Assembly: GCA_022820665.1 (NCBI GenBank)
Contig: JAJEFB010000052.1
Coordinates: forward strand, 62,001 to 126,000
From: Anaerolineae bacterium
Lineage (GTDB): Bacteria; Chloroflexota; Anaerolineae; Aggregatilineales; Phototrophicaceae
Direction: 5' to 3'
DNA: 64,000 nucleotides
Numbering within the stretch: the first letter of the stretch is position 1; each line of letters opens with the position of its first letter. The position numbers and the translations under genes are program-made. This document shows, in pieces, positions 35,766-45,718 of the stretch. A model generated the notes under the pieces. The model had not been told where the DNA came from. It saw only the letters and a program-made list of their open reading frames with translations, and made no database searches.

Positions 35766-36011
35766 CGCTGACTGTTCAATTGACTCCCATCACAAACCAT
35801 GTCCCCCATCCTTATGGGGGACTGAGCTGGGCAATCGCTTCAAAATCATTTGTGTCGATCGCCACATAAACTATCCAAAATGTAGGGGCGACCTATTAGG
35901 TCGCCCGAAAAAGCTTGAAAAAATATAGATTTTGCGCCAGTTTCTTGCTCGATACAAAGCTGTCCGATCCTCAGCCCAGAGCCCAGGGATGGAGTAGAAT
36001 TTCAATGCAAT
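35766..36011. repeat. Repeat-filled intergenic region
   Basis: In order: a family A hairpin (CCCCCAT with ATGGGGG, 35803-35820); a left-end copy of the MITE-like element (35830-35844, one mismatch to 23868-23882); the family B hairpin with a 9-bp stem (35886-35894 with 35898-35906); and the family A tail GGGATGGAGTAGAATTTCAA (35987-36006), also found at 57652. No gene. Confidence 0.65.
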
Positions 36012-36443
36012 CTACCGCTTGGGCTTGCTCTTGCGTCTGATGCCGATGTCGGAAAGTTCTAAATCGTGGTGACTTTGGCTGGTATAACGATGGTGCGGCG
36101 AGCCCATCAATCGCTCGCGCCTTTTAGCTGCTAGGGCGCGCCAGATCTCGCCGCGCCTGTCCCGCAGTAACACCTGCCGCGATGCCGCGCCGCCGGGAGC
36201 AATTCTGCGGCGATGCTCTTGCACATGCCTGTCCTGCGAATGCGTTTCGCTCAAGTCGCGTCGCGCGGCGGCAACAGCCGCCATATCCGCGCTGTAGCGA
36301 AAACCGATCGCCAGCCCAAAAACACCGCCGACAATCAGACCGAGTTCCGCGCCAATTTGTCCTGCCAGCGCGCCTCCCGCCAGCGCGCCGAGGAGCGCCG
36401 CGCCAATCAAGATTGCGACCGTGCTGGCAATTGCGCGTATCAC
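36012..36443 (-). CDS. Glycine-zipper membrane protein (third of three)
   Basis: 143 residues from GTG 36443, which has GAGGGA nine bases upstream. Residues 1-50 form two glycine-zipper hydrophobic segments (GAALLGALAGGALAGQIGAELGLIVGG); the rest is hydrophilic, Arg- and His-rich and ends KSKPKR. It is the last gene of a probable four-gene operon, with gaps of 13, 39 and 12 bases. Glycine-zipper segments pack or oligomerise in membranes. The basic tail could touch nucleic acid; that is inference. Function unknown. Confidence 0.65.
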   Translation of the reverse strand: MIRAIASTVAILIGAALLGALAGGALAGQIGAELGLIVGGVFGLAIGFRYSADMAAVAAARRDLSETHSQDRHVQEHRRRIAPGGAASRQVLLRDRRGEIWRALAAKRRERLMGSPHHRYTSQSHHDLELSDIGIRRKSKPKR

Positions 36444-36456
36444 TTCGTGGAATCCC

Positions 36457-36804
36457 TCAAACCTGGACCTTTTCCGTCACTTCCTGAATGCGCCGCTGCG
36501 CGGCATTCGCCCCGAGCTTGTCCTGCCTGTCGCGCTCTCGCAGATCGTAGTTATCGCGATAGGCCTCTCTGACGAGATCTCGGCGGGCGATGGTGATGAG
36601 GTTGTCGTCTGGTATCCCGGCCGCTTCAAACTCGAAGGAGGCGGCAGCGGAACCCGCGTTGCGCTGAACGCCGATGATGACGCCCATGCTCGTGCCGACG
36701 ACCGCCCCGGCGATCGCGCCTTCGGAAAGCCCTTCCGCCAGCAGGGCGCCGGCGACCGCGCCCAGAGCGGCGCCGGCAAGCGCATAAATCGAAAGCCTGA
36801 TCAC
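36457..36804 (-). CDS. Glycine-zipper membrane protein (second of three)
   Basis: 115 residues from GTG 36804. The hydrophobic part (about 8-48) reads GAALGAVAGALLAEGLSEGAIAGAVVGTSMG, clearly paralogous to the protein at 36844-37074. The tail of about 60 residues is charged and helical (DLVREAYRDNYDLRERDRQDK). Operon position and gaps suggest co-expression with the GIY-YIG gene upstream. Function unknown. Confidence 0.65.
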   Translation of the reverse strand: MIRLSIYALAGAALGAVAGALLAEGLSEGAIAGAVVGTSMGVIIGVQRNAGSAAASFEFEAAGIPDDNLITIARRDLVREAYRDNYDLRERDRQDKLGANAAQRRIQEVTEKVQV

Positions 36805-36843
36805 TGTATTCAGTCCCTAATCCATAAGCCAATTATACCAGGG

Positions 36844-37074
36844 CTAATCATCGCGGATCTTGGAATCCAGGTATTGCAGCCCCGATGGCGCTCCCATGTG
36901 ATCGCGCTCGCGCGCCCGCGCTATCTCGCTACCCTGCGCGCCGACGCTACCGCCGATGATGACTCCGCCAATCAGACCCTCAACCATGCCCTCGGCGAGG
37001 AAGAAGAAAGCCAGAGCGCCGATGACCGCGCCCAGCAGCGCGCCGGAGACTATGTGGCGGATGAAGTTAGGCAT
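36844..37074 (-). CDS. Glycine-zipper membrane protein (first of three)
   Basis: 76 residues. Hydrophobic residues 7-46 (GALLGAVIGALAFFFLAEGMVEGLIGG) match the next gene's product, showing a tandem duplication. The short tail is charged. It starts 12 bases after the GIY-YIG gene. Its ribosome binding site is weak, so it may depend on translation of the upstream gene. Function unknown. Confidence 0.6.
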   Translation of the reverse strand: MPNFIRHIVSGALLGAVIGALAFFFLAEGMVEGLIGGVIIGGSVGAQGSEIARARERDHMGAPSGLQYLDSKIRDD

Positions 37075-37086
37075 GGGTGATCACTT

Positions 37087-37608
37087 TTAGATATTGCATA
37101 TTTCCCGCACATGACTGTCATGCAGCTTGAACCATTCCCCTCTCTGACGTTGCTCGGCATAGCGCTGATGCAATTGCCATTCGAGAGTTGGAGCGTCTTC
37201 TGTCTCTACGACGGCGATGACTTGAATCTCAAATGGCAGCGCCTGCGTGAACTCCTTGAATCGGCGGGAAGGGTTGTTTGTTCTCCCGATCTTGTAAAAT
37301 TTGCTTATGTCGACGTCCTGGATAACATAGACGTAACCGGCGGGATGCTCTGTGGGCGGCATGGCGCCTGGATCGTCAAATTCGCAGCGGGGCGCATTGC
37401 GGCTGCTTGAATGAAATAGGAAAAGGGCGCTGGAGACGACCACGGCGCCAATCAATGCGCCTGTCAACCTATTTTTTCCTGCGACTGCGGTAATCACAGC
37501 GCCAATTGCCGCGCCGACTACCGACCCGATTGCGACTGGCAGACCGAAATGGCTCGCCACCAGCACACCCAAAAGGAAGGATGCGCCCGAGAAAATCATC
37601 ACTTTCAT
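37087..37608 (-). CDS. Membrane-anchored GIY-YIG (T5orf172/MUG113-like) protein
   Basis: 173 residues, start firmly supported by GGAGGG eight bases before the ATG. Residues 1-65 are two hydrophobic, glycine-rich segments; residues 90-165 form a GIY-YIG domain of the T5orf172/MUG113 type. The core residues are all present: YVY (92-94), KIGRT (106-110), Arg115/Arg116, E143-x3-H147 and EWF (158-160). Such domains cut DNA in known members. The domain should face the cytoplasm if the two helices form a hairpin. It leads an operon with three glycine-zipper proteins. A second protein of the same plan lies at 38692. Confidence 0.8.
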   Translation of the reverse strand: MKVMIFSGASFLLGVLVASHFGLPVAIGSVVGAAIGAVITAVAGKNRLTGALIGAVVVSSALFLFHSSSRNAPRCEFDDPGAMPPTEHPAGYVYVIQDVDISKFYKIGRTNNPSRRFKEFTQALPFEIQVIAVVETEDAPTLEWQLHQRYAEQRQRGEWFKLHDSHVREICNI

Positions 37609-37734
37609 TTGTCAAGCCCTCCAATGAGTTCTACGCGAGTCGGGTGTATTCGTTTTATCACGAACCTGTTTCTTCCGACAATCGGGTCTACAGACTTTTG
37701 GGAACAGTTCGGTCTCTATGCGATTCTTCGCGGG

Positions 37735-38472
37735 CTAATTCTTCCCGGAAAAAAACGCCTCCATAATCCCCCGCACTTCGTCGGAAACCAGACGCTCTCC
37801 AATGATTCCCAACTCCGTGTCAATCGTCTCTTGAACCACCTTCTGAGTCCCGCGCCGGAGAAGCATCTTGGTCTGGCGCAGCGCCTCGGGCGGCTTGGCC
37901 GCCAATTGCTCGGCTTTTGACCATGCCAGCCCATCCAGTTCATCCGCCGCGACCACCTCGTTGACAATGCCGCAGTCACGCGCCTTCTCAGCCGAAAAAG
38001 CCCCGCCCAGCAACAGCAACTCCGCAGCGCGCCCATATCCCGCCATGCGCGGCAGCAGATAGGTCGACGCCGCTTCCGGTACCAGTCCCAAATCGATGAA
38101 GGGCAAACGAAAGACCGCGCCTTCCGCCGCGTAAACCAAATCGCAATGCAGCAGCATTGTCACGCCCACGCCCACAGCCACGCCATTGACCGCCGCCACA
38201 ATCGGCGTTCCCGCGGACGCAATCGCCTTGATGAATTGCGCCGGCGCGGCCGATCCGGGATCGCTCAAGAAGCTGTTGAGGTCGTTGCCGGCGCTGAAGC
38301 TGTCCCCGCTGCCCGTGATGAAGATGACGCGGCTCTCGTCGCTTGCGTCCGCGCCTTCGATGGCTTCGCGCAGGGCGTCGTACATGGCTGGCGTCAGCGC
38401 GTTTTTCTTCTCCGGCCGGTTGATTTGCAGGCGCAGGATGTGGTTTTCTTGTGTGGTGTGGATGTTGGTCAT
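37735..38472 (-). CDS. Enoyl-CoA hydratase/isomerase family protein
   Basis: 245 residues from the ATG at 38472, with GGAG eight bases upstream; an upstream frame to 38499 adds nine residues. It has the crotonase fold: FSAGNDLNSF forms one half of the oxyanion hole, and the second is in the VNGVAVGVGVTMLLHCDLVYA stretch. The Glu in DLGLVPEAAST matches one catalytic Glu of hydratases; the other position is Gly/Val-rich, so isomerase or another crotonase reaction is possible. Cytoplasmic, in fatty-acid or related acyl-CoA metabolism. It lies between the two GIY-YIG genes on the same strand. Confidence 0.88.
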   Translation of the reverse strand: MTNIHTTQENHILRLQINRPEKKNALTPAMYDALREAIEGADASDESRVIFITGSGDSFSAGNDLNSFLSDPGSAAPAQFIKAIASAGTPIVAAVNGVAVGVGVTMLLHCDLVYAAEGAVFRLPFIDLGLVPEAASTYLLPRMAGYGRAAELLLLGGAFSAEKARDCGIVNEVVAADELDGLAWSKAEQLAAKPPEALRQTKMLLRRGTQKVVQETIDTELGIIGERLVSDEVRGIMEAFFSGKN

Positions 38473-38590
38473 TCCCATAACTCCAGACAATTTGATCAAT
38501 CACTTATGGATCCTCCAGGCGGGCATAATCTCTCGACGGAAGTAGGTTCACGTTTATCGCGCAAACATCCCATCCGCAAAGACGAGTTAC

Positions 38591-38641
38591 CCTTCCCCCG
38601 TGAGGCGGGGGATCGAGGGGGCCCAGGCCGGGGATGGGGTT
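38591..38641 (+). repeat. G-rich dispersed repeat (family A)
   Basis: A CCCCCGTGAGGCGGGGG hairpin, then ATCGAGGGGG, then a GGGGATGGGGTTGAAAT tail, the same order as the copy at 57586. It lies between the second GIY-YIG gene and the enoyl-CoA hydratase gene. Confidence 0.65.
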
Positions 38642-38691
38642 GAAATGAAGCATGCCCGCTTCCTCAACACATCCTTACCCCTATTTTCAGG

Positions 38692-39528
38692 TCAATGGCC
38701 GCAGGCCGCGGCGACTTGGGCAGCGCTCAAAACGAACCACTCTGTCATGCCTGAATGCGGGGTAGGGTGGTTCGTCCGCTGTCTAGTAAACATGTTATGC
38801 AGAATGCCTTCCAACCCAGAAGTGTTGTCGGTCTTGATAATGCAAACATAGTCCACTTTGCTCTTGACACCATTTGATATCTGATCGAGTCGGATCTTGG
38901 GTTGCTTTGTTGTCATACCGATTTTGTGTAGACCATTCGCTGCATCGTCTATTACATATACATATCTTTCTGTACCCGAAGCGGCTGGCAGTCTATTGAA
39001 GAAACGGGCATTCCACCCATTTCGCACCCGATTGAATGCGGATGCAACCCCATTACTTACTGACTTTGCTCCGTTTCTTACTCTGTTTACTACGGGGCGA
39101 ACAGCGTCGTCTACGACTTGAAGTACCGGCCGAGTAGCATCATCTACGACTTGTACTATGGGCCGAGCTGCGTCGTCAACTGCGCCAATCGCAGGCCGAG
39201 CGGCGTCATCTACCACTTGAATTACAGGTCGAGCCACATCGTCAACTGCGCCTAACGCGGGTGCCAATACGGGAGCAACGACAACTCCAACTCCGCCCAC
39301 TGCTCCACCCACCAAAGCTCCTTCCGCCCCGCTTTTCGCCGCGCAATGAGCAGAGTTTTCAATAACTTCGCGGTTGATCTCGCCATGCTCCTGGATTCCA
39401 GAAACGCCACATCCTACTACGCCCGTTCCCGCACCAATGACACCGCCTACAATTGCCGAGACGGCTATCGCTTCAACTATAGGTGTTAGCGCTGCTACCA
39501 CAACTGGTATCGCTGGTAAAACTATCAT
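38692..39528 (-). CDS. Glycine-zipper/11-residue-repeat protein with a GIY-YIG domain
   Basis: 278 residues, start supported by GGGAGGT just before the ATG. Residues 1-92 hold several hydrophobic, glycine-zipper-like segments. Residues 94-148 are five tandem 11-residue repeats of the form (A/V)VDDxxRPxxQ, then NRVRNG occurs twice. Residues 186-270 are a GIY-YIG domain like that at 37087: YVY (189-191), KIGMT (202-206), Arg213, E240-x3-H244 and EWF (263-265). The 11-residue period suits an amphipathic helix or coiled stalk that would hold the nuclease-like domain off the membrane. Function unknown. Confidence 0.8.
   Translation of the reverse strand: MIVLPAIPVVVAALTPIVEAIAVSAIVGGVIGAGTGVVGCGVSGIQEHGEINREVIENSAHCAAKSGAEGALVGGAVGGVGVVVAPVLAPALGAVDDVARPVIQVVDDAARPAIGAVDDAARPIVQVVDDATRPVLQVVDDAVRPVVNRVRNGAKSVSNGVASAFNRVRNGWNARFFNRLPAASGTERYVYVIDDAANGLHKIGMTTKQPKIRLDQISNGVKSKVDYVCIIKTDNTSGLEGILHNMFTRQRTNHPTPHSGMTEWFVLSAAQVAAACGH
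39085..39249 (-). repeat. Five 33-base coding repeats (11 residues each)
   Basis: In-frame tandem units encoding the VDD..RP..Q repeat. The copies vary at several bases, mostly without breaking the VDD and RP cores, so the protein pattern is conserved by selection. Confidence 0.75.
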
Positions 39529-44175: not shown

Positions 44176-45083
<908 letters not shown>

Positions 45084-45091
45084 GAGGCGGT

Positions 45092-45718
45092 TTGGAACGA
45101 CAAGAAGCGATACGTCGATTACAGTTGTTGAAGGGTGAAGATTTGCACAAGGTAGGAGAACGTCATGGCATCTACGCCACTGTAAACGGCAAGCAAAATA
45201 AGGGATGGGCAGGGCAGGTTTGTGAACGATACTTGGGACTGCCGTTGAACTCAGCAAGGAGCCCTAACTTTGGCTCCTGGGAACTGAAAGTTGTTCCATT
45301 AAAGTACCTCAAGAATGGGGCGCTCGTATTCAAAGAAACCATGGCTATCTGTATGATTGATGCGGTCAATGTTGCCCAGAAGAACTTCTATGAAAGTCAC
45401 CTGCTACAAAAACTGGCTAAGATGGTTGTCGTAGCTAGGACGGTTGGCAAGCACTACTCCGAGTCTTCATATATTGTCAAAGTAGCGGATTATGTGCTTA
45501 GTGAAGAGACATATGAACGTATCGAGAGAGATTATGACGAAGTGCGAAGCGTCATTTGTGATCCGAAGCGCGGTTTTGATTGCCTGGCTGGCAATATGGG
45601 TGTCTTAGTACAGCCAAGAACCAAAGGTCCGGGTCACGGATCCAAGAGCCGAGCATTTTATGCTAGAAAGGAACTGCTGAAAGAGATATTTGGCGACTTA
45701 AATGAAAGACTCAATTAG
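45092..45718 (+). CDS. MutH/Sau3AI-family endonuclease with altered active site
   Basis: 208 residues starting at TTG 45092, with AGGAGG five bases upstream; the SD overlaps the stop codon of the methyltransferase. The whole outline follows MutH: NKGWAGQVCERYLGL (Glu45), then SPNFGSWELKVVPL (Glu64, Lys66), KETMAICMI, the HLLQKLAKMVVV helix and FYARKELL near the end. The position of the first catalytic Asp (Asp70 in E. coli MutH) is Asn59. Family members cut at GATC. With Asn the nuclease may be weak or dead, which would make loss of the methyltransferase tolerable. Confidence 0.8.
   Translation: MERQEAIRRLQLLKGEDLHKVGERHGIYATVNGKQNKGWAGQVCERYLGLPLNSARSPNFGSWELKVVPLKYLKNGALVFKETMAICMIDAVNVAQKNFYESHLLQKLAKMVVVARTVGKHYSESSYIVKVADYVLSEETYERIERDYDEVRSVICDPKRGFDCLAGNMGVLVQPRTKGPGHGSKSRAFYARKELLKEIFGDLNERLN

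Follow-up and report, generated by a model that had tools for sequence, protein, structure and literature searches.

Gene content of the locus

The window (the whole stretch of 64,000 nucleotides that was analysed) comes from contig C32 of G000, a Chloroflexota genome of 4.56 Mb. It contains two GIY-YIG genes, referred to as type I and type II, and three small glycine-zipper genes. The features of the locus are as follows.

35886..35906, minus strand: hairpin resembling a terminator, where the same-strand run ends (consensus scan; the count of hairpins is not above that in shuffled sequences)
36012..36443, minus strand: small glycine-zipper protein C, 143 aa, with a basic C-terminal tail (ORF, homologues)
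36457..36804, minus strand: small glycine-zipper protein B, 115 aa (conserved motif; in 29 of 61 relatives, all within the genus)
36844..37074, minus strand: small glycine-zipper protein A, 76 aa (ORF; homologues in L087, L089 and L090)
37087..37608, minus strand: type I GIY-YIG protein, 173 aa, with three hydrophobic helices, a short linker and a MUG113 domain (8 homologues)
37087..37338, minus strand: type I GIY-YIG domain (Pfam, alignment, AF2, structural matches)
37399..37608, minus strand: type I membrane segment, residues 1-70 (hydropathy and AF2 helices)
37735..38472, minus strand: enoyl-CoA hydratase/isomerase family gene between the two GIY-YIG genes (Pfam ECH_1, 1.1e-46)
38692..39528, minus strand: type II GIY-YIG protein, 278 aa (Pfam MUG113, 1.4e-12; 19 homologues)
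38692..38967, minus strand: type II GIY-YIG (MUG113/T5orf172) domain (Pfam, alignment, AF2)
39088..39246, minus strand: five 11-residue repeats VDDxARPxxxx of type II (sequence, alignment)

A sequence-only reading of this DNA had described the two ORFs as several glycine-zipper membrane segments joined to a C-terminal GIY-YIG domain. This is confirmed at the coordinates above: both combine a hydrophobic, glycine-rich N-terminal part with a C-terminal domain of the MUG113/T5orf172 type. The type I C-terminal domain matches MUG113 (E 7e-19) and T5orf172 (9.4e-14) in Pfam. Profile matches of the locus to the MUG113/T5orf172 superfamily score 68.6 and 48.5 bits against a curated cut-off of 22.3. 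In the AF2 model, N-terminal helices at residues 2-21, 23-42 and 47-70 precede the domain. Residues 26-57 match glycine-zipper families weakly and below the Pfam cut-offs (at best 21 bits against 25). The linker motif RC[ED]F-DP is invariant among the eight aligned homologues. The core residues Y92/Y94, Y105-K-I-G108, R116 and E143 are present, and the catalytic residues are invariant in all eight proteins. The domain (residues 78-173) matches HIGLE (Z 5.9), Slx1 (5.5) and UvrC (5.0) with modest Z scores, which indicates that its fold is that of GIY-YIG nucleases. A Foldseek search of type I against the PDB returned nothing at E < 0.001, and a sequence search of the PDB found no relative. A homologue 90% identical to type I is present in the Chloroflexi MAG COS2_bin_19.

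The type II protein consists of a glycine-rich hydrophobic N-terminus (residues ~1-95), the V-D-D-x-A-R-P repeats, a basic linker and a C-terminal MUG113 domain. The domain is modelled by AF2 with a pLDDT of ~95 and matches Slx1 (Z 5.9); the N-terminus is modelled poorly. Y191, G204, R213 and E240 are kept and are invariant or nearly so among the 19 homologues. The tyrosine of the YIG motif is replaced by histidine in the window (HKIG) and is variable among homologues. The statement that both genes have intact core residues is thus correct for type I and needs a qualifier for type II. Among the GIY-YIG proteins, the N-termini diverge to 33-50% identity while the catalytic residues hold.

MUG113 (PF13455) and T5orf172 (PF10544) proteins of phages and bacteria share the domain, above curated cut-offs. 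The phage matches reach the domain alone, cover no more than 57% of the query and are less than 60% identical, and a pattern scan of IMG/VR with the type I profile found no viral relative. A viral origin is rejected on these grounds. No plasmid relatives of type II were found. The type II N-termini match tape-measure families in PHROGs (best 6e-7). Reversed type II sequences match as well (a tail protein at 2e-5 and a tape-measure family at 6.5e-5 at best), so the signal reflects composition and periodicity rather than homology, and mimicry of tape-measure proteins is rejected.

The three small genes are co-oriented with type I and lie downstream of it, separated by 12, 39 and 13 bp. The same-strand run begins at pdhA (44057), includes type I and ends before the hairpin at 35886-35906. 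Type I, which had been described as heading an operon, is therefore internal to a longer run. Pfam glycine-zipper matches of all three small ORFs fall below cut-offs (17.4 bits against 24.2 for protein B), and similarity to the Rick_17kDa_Anti, YMGG and Omp glycine-zipper families is limited to weak helix similarity, all below Pfam cut-offs. Protein B is the most constant gene of the group, and a search of 250 genomes from other genera of the phylum did not find it. In several relatives, a basic tail homologous to protein C is fused onto the C-terminus of protein B. A nearly invariant, putatively cytoplasmic motif of protein B, FE[FY]EAAG[IL]xDDNLIT-AR-L-REAYR, occurs in the genus only.

Conservation, gain and loss within the genus

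The loci of 24 members of the genus were compared, with genes called by a hexamer model. The GIY-YIG ORFs were forced in gene calling because their codon use scores poorly. About 20 species of the genus share the order pdhA-pdhB-E2-glycosyltransferase-[type II]-enoyl-CoA hydratase-[type I]-zippers. The lack of a conserved neighbourhood in relatives had been named as evidence against the sequence-only reading; the neighbourhood is conserved. On the far side of the locus, most species have a convergent run of other genes, from which the window differs. The locus is a stable chromosomal site beside the pyruvate dehydrogenase genes and not a classic mobile defence island.

Type II is present in 18 of the 24 genomes, type I in 8, protein B or its relatives in 20 and the hydratase in 19. 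The zipper genes form the constant part of the locus and the GIY-YIG genes come and go. L089, which is closely related to the window species, has no type II, and L087 and L090 have no type I, which indicates that the two types are gained and lost independently. In L109 and L110, type II occurs in another context. L090, L095 and L098 keep the zipper genes and lack both GIY-YIG genes. The zipper genes and nucleases had been read as one system; the persistence of the zipper genes apart from the GIY-YIG genes shows that such a system is not obligatory, and as an obligatory one it is rejected. The small zipper proteins are neighbours that may share the membrane with the nucleases and are not required partners. 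The enoyl-CoA hydratase gene is probably a neighbour unrelated in function to the GIY-YIG genes.

The variable slot has other occupants. The type II position in L101 (5572-7173) encodes a 533-aa protein with a TM segment, a coiled coil and a GIY-YIG domain, and without DUF4041. L098 has a TM and coiled-coil protein. DndB-like (DGQHR) genes occupy the slot in L088 (8633-9844) and L098 (4847-6058), and other dnd genes were not seen near them.

The dN/dS of type I is 0.15 between the window and L089 and 0.10-0.22 in other pairs, and that of type II is 0.13-0.24. By these ratios, both types are under purifying selection. Homologues at the same place in other species, together with dN/dS of 0.10-0.24, indicate that the genes are real and more than chance ORFs. 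The dS of type I equals that of neighbouring genes, which fits vertical descent. In two pairs the dS of type II is 2.0 and 2.7, compared with 0.3-1.1 for flanking genes, although these estimates are saturated and rough. This excess and the gain and loss of GIY-YIG genes between sister species suggest that alleles have been replaced.

Relation to SNIPE and to a second GIY-YIG locus

SNIPE (PD-Lambda-1), a GIY-YIG nuclease tethered to the membrane, cuts the DNA of phages while it is being injected (Saxton et al. 2026, Nature; PMC13190303). It consists of a TM segment, DUF4041 and a GIY-YIG domain, and defence requires both the catalytic Glu and DUF4041 (PMC13190303). SNIPE without the TM segment is toxic, the N-termini of its homologues are diverse, and the logic of a membrane nuclease with an anchor has been demonstrated experimentally (PMC13190303). 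The plan of the window proteins, for which the sequence-only reading knew of no described system, thus has a counterpart in a known membrane-anchored GIY-YIG protein.

The window proteins resemble SNIPE in having an N-terminal membrane anchor (here by hydropathy and model), a C-terminal MUG113-type GIY-YIG domain with the catalytic Glu, and diverse N-termini beside a conserved nuclease domain. They differ in lacking DUF4041, in having two to three glycine-rich helices where SNIPE has one TM segment, and in size (173-320 aa compared with about 460-540). Their locus is fixed in the chromosome, and their GIY-YIG domains lie outside the SNIPE clade. In PADLOC, the best match of type I is PD-Lambda-1 (1.9e-11), and type I also matches PDC-S57 (1.1e-9); type II matches PDC-S57 at 6e-8 and PD-Lambda-1 at 6e-5. 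PDC-S57, a candidate defence protein of PADLOC, has a similar GIY-YIG domain. Within its 212-residue profile, the match falls in the first 90 residues, whereas the window domains are C-terminal and membrane-anchored.

DUF4041 has no Pfam match in type I or type II and none in 34 genomes of the genus; applied to the phylum, this search detects it in 4 of 301 genomes (E ~1e-21). Since DUF4041 defines SNIPE, the window proteins are not SNIPE. Five proteins outside the genus match the type I profile among 400 genomes of the phylum. Four of these carry DUF4041 in the same ORF and are SNIPE-like, and the fifth is another protein, with no predicted TM segment. The L101 protein also has a SNIPE-like plan, with DUF4041 missing. 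By analogy, the window proteins plausibly work like SNIPE.

A domain search of the genus identifies many further GIY-YIG ORFs. They occupy a second locus, bounded by an Exo_endo_phos gene and conserved flanks. This array locus (L113-L126; G000:C7:28254-28910 in the window genome) encodes up to four membrane-tethered GIY-YIG proteins per genome. In these proteins the GIY-YIG domain comes first and is followed by the TM segment; some also have low-complexity sequence and end in an SH3_3 domain, and these SH3b domains are of the extracellular type. In most array copies the active site has lost its Gly, Arg or Glu, and some genomes retain one intact copy. In the domain tree, the array domains are nested in the type I lineage and type II forms its own group. 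Four SNIPE-like domains from the phylum branch apart from the GIY-YIG domains of the genus, in an alignment of 87 columns with uncertain deep forks.

The conservation of array paralogues despite the loss of G, R or E indicates that the GIY-YIG fold is useful without catalysis. It is in line with a different role for the window proteins, as membrane tethers or structural proteins whose GIY-YIG fold binds nucleic acid or another partner and is not a phage-directed nuclease. Vertical, syntenic inheritance agrees with such a role, but both types in the window retain their catalytic residues, and this explanation is considered unlikely. Similarly doubtful is a membrane defence network restricted to the genus and distinct from SNIPE, in which active zipper-anchored nucleases would act with the tail-anchored or SH3b-bearing, mostly dead GIY-YIG arrays, the latter sensing or scaffolding DNA entry at the envelope.

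Membrane side and proposed function

The side of the membrane on which the nuclease domain lies decides between a mode of action like that of SNIPE and an outward-facing surface nuclease. In the latter explanation, the three-helix type I protein holds its domain outside the cell, where it trims extracellular DNA for nutrition or uptake or cuts phage DNA before entry. The three AF2 helices place the ends of type I on opposite sides of the membrane. Its N-terminus and loop 2 have 2-3 K/R and no acidic residues, and loop 1 has no K/R; under the positive-inside rule, such a distribution predicts an external C-terminal domain. All eight type I proteins share C75 and C171. C227 and C276 occur together in 17 of the 19 type II proteins and are both lost in the other two, which form one clade and so indicate a single loss. 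These cysteine pairs could be disulphides of an extracytoplasmic domain.

Other charges point the opposite way. The segment after helix 3 of type I also has 1-3 K/R. In type II, the loop between the helices is acidic and the stretch ahead of the domain is strongly basic, which suggests that its domain is inside. Across 46 array proteins, 195 K/R precede the TM segment and 74 follow it, an excess consistent with a cytoplasmic GIY-YIG domain in these paralogues. In addition, no competence genes were seen beside the locus. An outward-facing nuclease is rated as rather improbable.

The glycine-rich N-terminus and amphipathic 11-residue repeats of type II are of a kind found in polymorphic toxins. 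This resemblance, along with the high allelic divergence of type II, would fit a toxin or self-killing effector in which the membrane part is like a polymorphic-toxin linker and the GIY-YIG domain is a nuclease for delivery or for abortive infection. Pfam recognises neither a signal peptide nor a secretion domain, however, and there is no variable immunity-like partner gene, the next gene being the conserved enoyl-CoA hydratase. No evidence was found in favour of the abortive-infection effector that the sequence-only reading had offered as one option, and a toxin of either kind is judged very unlikely.

The locus shows conserved membrane-type GIY-YIG genes with catalytic residues kept and genus-wide synteny, and the genus has mostly inactive relatives of these genes in the arrays. 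The preferred reading, held tentatively at a probability of roughly 0.45, is that both products are GIY-YIG endonucleases anchored in the membrane, which cut foreign DNA on its way through, as SNIPE does but with another anchor. The glycine-rich N-terminal helices would place the protein in the membrane and probably oligomerise it, as judged from sequence and model. By analogy with SNIPE, where this is demonstrated, a nuclease held at the membrane would be kept off the nucleoid. The GIY-YIG domain, with its conserved catalytic residues, would then cleave DNA of phages or other sources where it enters, and the variable N-terminal part (repeats or coiled coil) may set which entry machinery is met.

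This mechanism is favoured by the conserved catalytic residues against diverging N-termini and by purifying selection. It is also favoured by the PADLOC matches to PD-Lambda-1, by the SNIPE-like plan of four of the five profile matches outside the genus and of the L101 protein, and by the gain and loss of GIY-YIG genes, the dS excess of type II and the presence of other defence-type genes at the locus, namely the Dam-type methyltransferase with its restriction nuclease and the DndB-like genes of L088 and L098. Counted against it are the missing DUF4041, the stable, non-island locus, the separation from SNIPE in the domain tree, and the charge pattern and C75/C171 of type I, which fit an outward domain. 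The earlier suggestion of a nuclease defence at the membrane gains support by analogy, with SNIPE as a direct precedent (PMC13190303).

If cutting at the membrane is confirmed, membrane-held GIY-YIG nucleases acting at DNA entry have arisen in at least two forms, and such a nuclease can cut at the entry point without DUF4041. The genus also holds both active and inactive paralogues, carried by different anchors, a natural series in which the roles of anchor, adaptor and catalysis would be experimentally separable.

A further pair of genes lies beside pdhA. A Dam-family adenine methyltransferase gene (~44250-45083, plus strand) contains a run of 13 G at 44421-44433 within its coding sequence. 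Most of the 13 relatives inspected have a run of 10-15 G at the corresponding site. L089, L093, L102 and L114 have an intact frame, and in the window, L090, L091 and L100 the frame is interrupted at the run or close to it. Directly behind the methyltransferase gene, 45110-45718 (plus strand) encodes a Sau3AI/MutH-like nuclease (Sau3AI family E 1e-15, below cut-off); relatives have a PDDEXK_11 nuclease at this position instead. From the sequences, the methyltransferase and nuclease look like a phase-variable restriction-modification system, although homopolymer assembly error is also possible. Runs of at least 9 G/C in 732 kb of loci appear nearly all in or beside the methyltransferase gene.
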